From positions 1 to 35,900 of the forward strand of contig JAUVKT010000018.1 of the NCBI GenBank assembly GCA_030596125.1: DNA of 35,900 nt, in the 5' to 3' direction. Position 1 is the stretch's first letter, and each line of letters starts with the position of its first letter. The translations under genes and the position numbers were made by a program. The notes under the pieces were generated by a model. That model saw only the letters and a program-made list of their open reading frames with translations, was not told the origin of the DNA and searched no databases. Positions 33,535-35,900 of this stretch are shown here, one piece after another. The DNA comes from Bacteroidales bacterium. GTDB taxonomy: Bacteria > Bacteroidota > Bacteroidia > Bacteroidales > VadinHA17.

Positions 33535-33562
33535 GTAAAGACGCAATGCATTGCGTCTCAAC
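33535..33562. repeat. 28-bp repeat containing a perfect 20-bp palindrome AGACGCAATGCATTGCGTCT (copy 1)
   Basis: gtaaagacgcaatgcattgcgtctcaac; reverse complement recurs at 35544-35571. Confidence 0.95.
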
Positions 33563-33587: not shown

Positions 33588-35297
33588 ATGAAAAAAATCT
33601 ACACATTATTTGTAGCATTGATCATTATGGGTTGCCTTATGGCACAGTCACCGGAGCGTTTTAATTACCAGGCTGTGGTACGTGGCTCCGGCGGAAGTCT
33701 GATCGTAAACAGTGAAGTTGGAATAAAGATCTCAATACTGCAGGGAAGCACGTCTGGCACAGCAGTGTGTATAGAGGAGTTTAGTCCGACCACAAATGAT
33801 TACGGACTTGTAACACTTGAGATAGGCAGTGTTAACAGTGTTGATTTTGAATTGATTGACTGGTCTGCTGGTCCGTACTTTATAAAAATTGAGTTAGATG
33901 AAAACGGCGGAATATCATACAGTGAGATGGGCACCAGCCAGTTGTTAAGCGTACCATACGCACTGCATGCAACAACGGCCGGTAGAACAACAGGAGATTC
34001 GATATGGAAGAAATCAGCTGGCGATATATATTTTGTTGAAGGAAAGGTTGGTATTGGAAGAGATAATCCGACATCAAAATTATCAATTTTTAATGATCCT
34101 CTAGGAGAGCTACTTGATGACAAGATAGACTGGTTTCGACTAGAAGGAAAAAGTGGAGGAAACTCTGACAATCTATACCTGTTTCATAGAAGGCACATGG
34201 ATGGTACAAACTGGAATTCATCTGAAATAAAAATACAAAAACAGGTTGATTCATCCCCAATGCATTATATCTCTTTTATGGGCCTACCTGGCAATATCAG
34301 TCGGTTGGAATTTGGATATAGTACAATTCCTTATATGTCAATTGATAGATATGGCAAGGTAGGGATTGGAACAACTTCTCCCACTAAACCACTTGATGTC
34401 GTCGGTGATATAAAGATGGGAAATGACATAACTATCTGGGAAGGAACCAGGGCCCTTAGTCTCAGGCAGGACAACTTGAATTCCTATGTATCAAATAAGG
34501 AAAATTTTGTAGGCAATGGGTCAACAGACAACGGATCGCTTAATTTGCATGGACAGGGAGGCCTTTCATTGCGTTATGGTAATGCAGGGAGTGCGGGTAC
34601 TATTGGTCTATACCTGAGTACTGCCGGGAATATTGGTATAGGTACGACAAGCCCTAATGCGAGTGCAGTTCTTGATGTACAATCCACTACTCAAGGCTTT
34701 TTACCACCTCGTCTGTCATTTGAAGAAATAATAGCTATTTCAAATCCTGCTGAAGGTTTGGTAGTTTATAACACAGATTCAAAATTATTGAATTTATATA
34801 ACGGGACAAAATGGCTAAATATGGATGGAAGTTCGGCTATGCGTATAGGCATGAGTTACGCCGGCGGAATTATCTTTTACGTTGACGGTACTGGGATTCA
34901 CGGTTTGGTATGTGCAGCAAACGACCAAAGCACAGGAGCCGAGTGGGGCTGTTACGGAACAGGAATACCGGGAGCGGATGGAACAGCAGTAGGAACGGGA
35001 GCACAAAATACAATTGATATTGAAGCCGGATGTACAACAGCTGGAACGGCAGCAGATATTTGTGCAAACTTATCTTTAAACGATTACAATGATTGGTTTT
35101 TACCTTCAAAAGATGAATTAAATCTAATGTACACAAATCTGCACTTGGCTGCACTTGGCGGTTTTGCTAGTGCCTGGTATTGGAGTTCTACCGAGAGCTC
35201 TAGCGGCTTAGCATGGAGGCAGTACTTCGGCAGTGGCCTGAAGAGCACCACCAATAAGGGCTTCCACCAAGATGTACGTGCAGTTCGGGCTTTTTAA
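33588..35297 (+). CDS. Secreted tail-fibre-like protein with C-terminal DUF1566 (C-type-lectin-like) domain; candidate DGR variable protein
   Basis: signal peptide MKKIYTLFVALIIMGCLMAQ, 'GIGTTSP' repeats, AVLDVQSTTQGFLPPRL, GGIIFYVD...DYNDWFLPSKDELNLMY...WYWSSTE...VRAVRAF. Start trimmed from 33546. Confidence 0.85.
   Translation: MKKIYTLFVALIIMGCLMAQSPERFNYQAVVRGSGGSLIVNSEVGIKISILQGSTSGTAVCIEEFSPTTNDYGLVTLEIGSVNSVDFELIDWSAGPYFIKIELDENGGISYSEMGTSQLLSVPYALHATTAGRTTGDSIWKKSAGDIYFVEGKVGIGRDNPTSKLSIFNDPLGELLDDKIDWFRLEGKSGGNSDNLYLFHRRHMDGTNWNSSEIKIQKQVDSSPMHYISFMGLPGNISRLEFGYSTIPYMSIDRYGKVGIGTTSPTKPLDVVGDIKMGNDITIWEGTRALSLRQDNLNSYVSNKENFVGNGSTDNGSLNLHGQGGLSLRYGNAGSAGTIGLYLSTAGNIGIGTTSPNASAVLDVQSTTQGFLPPRLSFEEIIAISNPAEGLVVYNTDSKLLNLYNGTKWLNMDGSSAMRIGMSYAGGIIFYVDGTGIHGLVCAANDQSTGAEWGCYGTGIPGADGTAVGTGAQNTIDIEAGCTTAGTAADICANLSLNDYNDWFLPSKDELNLMYTNLHLAALGGFASAWYWSSTESSSGLAWRQYFGSGLKSTTNKGFHQDVRAVRAF
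35175..35297 (+). other. Candidate DGR variable region (VR)
   Basis: WYWSSTESSSGLAWRQYFGSGLKSTTNKGFHQDVRAVRAF; 14 of 26 codons between 35190 and 35267 are NNC. Confidence 0.6.
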
Positions 35298-35543: not shown

Positions 35544-35571
35544 GTTGAGACGCAATGCATTGCGTCTTTAC
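35544..35571. repeat. 28-bp palindromic repeat (copy 2, inverted relative to copy 1)
   Basis: gttgagacgcaatgcattgcgtctttac is the exact reverse complement of 33535-33562. Confidence 0.95.
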
Positions 35572-35806: not shown

Positions 35807-35900
35807 ATGAAAACTAAATTGTTCTTTTCGGTTACGTTATTGCTTTTTGCTATGTTGTCTGTGTTCGGTCAGTCACCGGGTAAAATAAACTACCAGGGTG
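35807..35900 (+). CDS. N-terminus of a second secreted tail-fibre-like protein, paralogous to 33588-35297 (truncated by window edge)
   Basis: MKTKLFFSVTLLLFAMLSVFGQSPGKINYQG, similar to ...MGCLMAQSPERFNYQAV of the preceding gene. Confidence 0.8.
   Translation, partial: MKTKLFFSVTLLLFAMLSVFGQSPGKINYQG

Follow-up and report, generated by a model that had tools for sequence, protein, structure and literature searches.

The window analysed here is the entire contig C125 (35,900 bases) of genome G000, whose assembly comprises 2.70 Mb in 165 contigs and is 96.3% complete. Near its 3' end lies a gene for a predicted fibre protein laid out as an apparent signal peptide (MKKIYTLFVALIIMGCLMAQS), an N-terminal domain, a fibre-like middle and a C-terminal Lcl_C/DUF1566 head, and the last 41 codons form a candidate variable region (VR) of a diversity-generating retroelement (DGR), a genetic system by which the tip of a binding protein is made to vary at random (Table 1). 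The open reading frame, taken from 33546, carries an earlier in-frame ATG ahead of the start codon adopted here. NCBIfam models matched both ends of the protein weakly, with Bdello_MAT_N (mosaic adhesive trimer N-domain) below its cut-off at the N terminus and adhesin_Lcl at the C terminus. The whole assembly holds one Lcl_C domain, and the fibres of G000 look like a surface-fibre family with exchangeable heads. Nine more genes with the N-terminal fibre domain were observed on contigs C15, C27, C37, C39, C48, C63, C67, C86 and C129, and their C termini differ from Lcl_C.

By inspection of open reading frames, the neighbourhood of the fibre gene looks chromosomal and of housekeeping type, with a TldD/PmbA-like pair, a symporter and a protein of 933 aa that resembles DNA polymerase I at its start. 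The earlier note had called the protein tail-fibre-like; in the phage sense this description did not hold, because the chromosomal neighbours and the apparent signal peptide make a cell-surface fibre likelier than a phage tail fibre. A phage neighbourhood was not found at the gene, and 50,697 phage records gave distant protein matches only. A phage or plasmid origin was set aside, as close support was absent from annotated phage and plasmid collections. One Porphyromonas phage record (L196) contains a distant, intact DUF1566 protein with no RT annotated nearby, and a viral-protein structure library holds many DUF1566 folds. On the 3' side of the VR, 600 bp of contig remain. A second fibre-like gene, with an N terminus similar to that of the VR gene, begins there 510 bp past the latter, and occupies the spot where Avd, template repeat (TR) and RT would normally stand; its C terminus could be another VR. 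In addition, a 20-bp palindrome (AGACGCAATGCATTGCGTCT) is present exactly twice in the window (33539-33558 and 35548-35567), one copy to each side of the VR gene, in a 28-bp context that is inverted between them. We dropped it as a mobility mark since the same repeat lies near other genes of the genome, on C27 and C86, and it therefore looks like a dispersed intergenic repeat.

Table 1. Features of the candidate DGR target gene and its 3' flank (positions in the window)
Feature	Position	Strand	Remark
Candidate DGR target gene, predicted surface fibre, 569 aa	33588..35297	+	ATG at 33588
N-terminal fibre domain	33645..33971	+	nine further copies elsewhere in the genome
C-terminal head, Lcl_C/DUF1566 (PF07603)	34845..35294, best stretch 34923-35288	+	Pfam 8.8e-10, 39.3 bits, cut-off 34.9
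Putative variable region (VR), 123 nt	35175..35297	+	gap-free against the G163 DGR template
Variable codons, block 1: AGC TCT AGC GGC TTA	35196..35210	+	template AAC AAT AAC AAC AAC
Variable codon TAC	35223..35225	+	template AAC
Variable codons GGC AGT	35229..35234	+	template GAC AAT
Variable codon CTG	35238..35240	+	template AAC
Variable codons AGC ACC ACC AAT	35244..35255	+	template AAC AAC AAC AAT
Variable codons GGC TTC	35259..35264	+	template AAC AAC
Variable codon CAA	35268..35270	+	template AAC
VR-type motif resembling an initiation-of-mutagenic-homing site, GTTCGGGCTTTTTAA, 15 nt, over stop codon	35283..35297	+	identical at VRs of L056, L131, L132 and L133
Second fibre-like gene, start (MKTKLFFSVTLLLFAMLSVFGQSPGKINYQG...)	35808..35900	+	cut by contig end

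Homologs of the head domain occurred in 84 of 294 genomes of the order, and 29 of the 294 matched a DGR-type RT (E<=1e-20). With RTs at homolog loci sought by tblastn, parts of a one-strand cassette consisting, in this order, of target gene, Avd, Asn-rich TR and RT were recovered at seven loci; all four parts were detected at L056, L131, L132, L133 and L134, and the cassette was partial at L087 and L135. The L056 locus (contig C122 of G163, 5.3 kb) carries the complete cassette on a single strand, including an Avd (PF22296, 7.7e-22; NCBIfam DivGenRetAVD, 1.2e-18) and an RT (PF00078, 5.3e-20). Avd starts roughly 55-200 bp past the target stop in complete cassettes. In two gap-free true VR/TR pairs, mismatches affected 21/44 and 15/44 template adenines versus 0/61 and 1/61 other positions. 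The G000 head is homologous to those of the five complete loci, and its VR aligns without gaps to the L056 VR/TR pair, but in the five the target is immediately followed by Avd, TR and RT, and in G000 it is not. A protein template running from WYWSSTENSN to VRAVRAF, which the earlier note had guessed from the window, turned out close to real templates beside the DGR RTs of relatives, for example YYWSSTENNNNNAWIQNFDNGNQNNNNKNNTNYVRAVRDF. Elsewhere in the order, genome G026 (L066 and L067) carries at least 13 Lcl_C heads, some with strong third-base agreement (10/11), and no DGR RT match at E<=1e-20; L046 has three Lcl_C domains in a 4.7-kb contig, with varying third-base agreement.

The frame, residues, stop and coordinates that had been reported for the last 41 codons proved exact (TGG at 35175, TAA at 35295-35297), as did the 14 NNC codons listed among the 26 from ACC (35190) to CAC (35265-35267). 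C-ending codons made up 13/27 of the variable core versus 86/529 elsewhere in the gene (binomial p=1.1e-4). Earlier 27-codon stretches of the fibre gene never exceeded 10, and 13 was reached by 1.3% of such stretches in the long open reading frames of the window. We rejected this count by itself as evidence of a DGR, because some fixed homologs reach 11-12/26. As no template was found in G000, the bias at adenines was scored against a foreign one, from G163: the VR mismatched 27/50 adenines of this template versus 11/73 other bases (p=5.4e-6), and at the mismatched adenines it had G 11 times, T 8 times and C 8 times. Six templates all gave the same direction of bias (p from 5e-6 to 0.006), and mismatches are thus concentrated at the adenines of foreign templates. 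The 11 mismatches at other bases exceed those of the two true pairs. The third base agreed with the G163 template at 12/15 AAY codons. At the varied AAY codons it was kept in 11 of 14 (p=2.6e-6 versus the codons just upstream; p=2.8e-4 with third bases shuffled within the VR) while positions 1 and 2 varied; T was kept at both varied AAT sites, and the three departures were TTA, CTG and CAA. Among homologs, third-base agreement graded from 10/10 to 12/12 beside intact cassettes to chance level in L013, L023, L043 and L192-L195.

Comparison with the nearest relative, L036 of genome G305 (73% protein identity, another genus of the same taxonomic family), placed the variation between the two genera at the same codons. 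DNA identity was 0.857 upstream of the VR and 0.859 in VR framework codons, versus 0.378 at the 15 AAY-homologous codons (p=1.7e-11). Positions 1 and 2 of these codons differed at 24/30 sites, a proportion near the 75% expected of two independent randomisations. At L036 (7733-8430) an intact VR is followed by a fragmented Avd and by 31 residues of an RT, 90% identical to the G163 RT, so that the cassette there has decayed. The earlier note had asked whether non-DGR homologs share the residues at the variable sites. Such sharing did not occur: the fixed homologs L192-L195 carried other residues, their third-base agreement was at chance, and the 3' motif had diverged in three of the four.

The 3' motif was present in the window in its VR form, GTTCGGGCTTTTTAA, with zero mismatches, and the VRs of L134 and L087 were one or a few bases off. 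It is distinct from the template version, which reads GTTCGGGATTTTAAA at the same place in L056, L131, L132 and L135; the template version of the 15-nt motif was also given as GATTTTAAA, in place of GTTCGGGCTTTTTAA. Mismatches to GTTCGGGCTTTTTAA fell as third-base agreement rose (Spearman -0.74, p=4e-8, n=41 homologs, the homologs being interrelated and p-values of this correlation hence optimistic). Among homologs ending in RAF the correlation was -0.87, which argues for a constraint at the DNA level and not only at the protein level. Its position, its conservation and what is known of other DGRs suggest that GTTCGGGCTTTTTAA may be a functional IMH. Fourteen homologs had a perfect motif, and the genomes of 13 of them were searched for an RT. 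Seven of these genomes gave a strong match to a DGR-type RT (G163, G079, G012, G246, G298, G242 and G192; a few of the matches hold an internal stop codon), and six gave none or only short debris (G000, G047, G172, G305, G295 and G300). G172 is 94% complete in about 20 contigs, which makes it probable that some of these absences, at least, are genuine. Bias at adenines, kept third bases and the 3' motif together identify 35175-35297 as the putative VR of a DGR target gene, which agrees with the proposal that the C-type-lectin-like DUF1566/Lcl_C head bears a VR of a DGR lineage.

The window itself is free of RT, Avd and TR, as had been noted before, and none of the parts of a complete DGR (an RT in the genome, a template repeat, an adjacent Avd) was found in the G000 assembly; the idea of a working DGR in this genome thus gained no support. 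The RVT_1 profile, which scored 72 bits on the L056 DGR RT, had zero matches across the assembly, and the L056/G163 DGR RT used as query returned nothing at E<=10. A near-copy of the VR beside a DGR RT, which had been suggested as a check, was sought and not found in the assembled part: the VR matched only itself, the next best matches being of 14-17 bases, and a second protein-level copy was not found either. The lack of a template copy and of a DGR RT, which the earlier note had named among the observations that would speak against its proposal, therefore holds for as much of the genome as was assembled. The template of G000, if present, is expected to resemble GGTATTGGAGTTCTACCGAGA...AATAAGAA...CGTGCAGTTCGGGATTTTAAA. 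No Avd was found next to the target. Six bAvd-like matches, four of them clear, occurred elsewhere in the assembly; the best (C164, 45 bits) was rejected as a DGR part because the open reading frames of its 4.4-kb contig include no RT or TR, and the others fell below the family cut-off. A search for overlap that would join the end of C125 to another contig found none.

Since the cassette is neither beside the gene nor in the assembly, an orphan target with a frozen variant is the likeliest reading, and we put the probability that the gene encodes a chromosomal surface fibre orphaned through cassette loss at about 0.6. Besides the missing cassette, the non-Avd gene at the place of Avd, the decayed cassette of L036 and the three third-base departures point to this reading. 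The cassette may only be unassembled, because the contig ends 600 bp downstream, inside a fibre-like gene, and the assembly is in 165 contigs; the target would then still be active, with Avd, TR and RT in the unassembled part, just past the contig end or acting remotely. The perfect VR-type motif and the high third-base agreement would suit an active target, and Treponema denticola provides examples of remote DGR targets (PMC4891356), but we consider this explanation unlikely, though the strongest of the alternatives. Against it, the stop codon is followed by 510 bp without Avd-like coding and then by another gene, at a distance where the family would already have its Avd; the assembly yields no RVT_1 match; the nearest relative likewise has no intact RT; and the third-base departures weigh on the same side.

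Much less probable is that a DGR-bearing Bacteroidetes supplied the head alone and already diversified, by horizontal transfer or domain shuffling, and that the head was never mutated in this lineage. DNA similarity to all homologs does start in the C-terminal part (as a rule at 34856-34944, and never before 34671) and stops by about the stop codon, and the genome has a single Lcl_C against nine other fibre N-domains; the nearest homolog nevertheless belongs to the same family, so that the head may also have descended vertically. Ordinary divergence of lectin loops, by diversifying selection with C-ending codons arising by chance, could be imagined from the signature-free Lcl_C homologs in the same family (L192-L195, L171, L177, L179 and L182). 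We regard a history free of any DGR as very improbable, since it leaves unexplained why third bases were kept while positions 1 and 2 were randomised and why a DNA-level 3' motif is common to this VR and to those of complete DGRs, and it is contradicted by the bias at adenines, the L036 comparison and the motif correlation.

Under the preferred reading of an orphaned target, a DGR RT with Avd in an ancestor would have copied an Asn-rich template of AAC and AAT codons, introducing errors at adenines, and the resulting cDNA, primed at GTTCGGGCTTTTTAA over the stop codon, would have replaced the VR. Past mutagenic retrohoming at the fibre gene itself would thereby have randomised some 15 residues on the surface of the Lcl-type head of the secreted fibre, and presumably altered what the cell sticks to. 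Later the cassette would have gone from the side of the gene, by real loss instead of an assembly gap, leaving the last variant frozen in the orphan target.

The AlphaFold2 model of the head domain (mean pLDDT 96.1) was consistent with a C-type-lectin-like, Lcl-type domain. Its best fold match in the PDB was 8q4e, the Lcl C-terminal domain (E 2.3e-8), which is also its best sequence match among solved structures. According to PMC11162425, the C-terminal domain of Legionella Lcl is a trimeric glycosaminoglycan-binding head, and Lys369, Ser370, Ser371, Ala372, Asn373, Asn378, Lys380, Lys385 and Lys391 are named for charge or chondroitin sulphate binding. In an alignment ungapped over the VR, eight of these nine residues coincided with AAY codons of the template and the remaining one with GAC (p=7.5e-4), with Lcl numbering derived by placing Glu368/Lys369 on the sequence, a placement that fits the residues named in that paper. 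Pfam and fold thus indicate a C-type-lectin-like domain, and the alignment to Lcl binding residues suggests that the variable residues are exposed on its surface. Lcl (PDB 8q4e; PMC11162425) and the G000 fibre appear alike in head fold and may share the trimeric state, but the stalk of Lcl is collagen-like, unlike that of G000, and DGR diversification is not mentioned in the part of PMC11162425 used here. The protein is likely a surface fibre, possibly adhesive, with randomisation of its head serving ligand recognition, and the correspondence between variable codons and Lcl glycan-binding residues raises the hypothesis that such heads bind charged or sulphated glycans.

Among the Pfam domains of DGR targets in human microbiomes, DUF1566 is reported to be the commonest (PMC4159848). 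Known DUF1566/Lcl_C targets (PMC4159848, PMC6642488) likewise have, in a C-type-lectin-fold domain, a VR at the C terminus that extends to the stop codon, and the Asn-codon-rich template also seen in relatives of G000; G000 differs in that RT, TR and Avd were not found. Treponema denticola isolates without RT and TR keep their target genes, which were read as DGR remnants (PMC4891356). These orphans are alike in their A-site VR signature, in lacking RT and TR and in being judged on the templates of relatives, but belong to another phylum with another template; G000 is known from a fragmented assembly, and its cassette loss is therefore not proven. DUF1566 targets and targets without RT and TR being already known, the interest here lies in the orphaned target and in its correspondence with Lcl. 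Our results suggest that a DGR target is recognisable without RT or template when A-site divergence, kept third bases and a VR-type 3' motif occur together; standard DGR finders begin at an RT or a TR/VR pair and would miss the G000 target. Whether Lcl-type fibres of Bacteroidetes have repeatedly lost their DGR machinery, while target, randomised codons and intact priming motif persist, seems to us evenly balanced. If true, these fibres would form a graded series of fossil VRs, in which third-base decay could date the loss.
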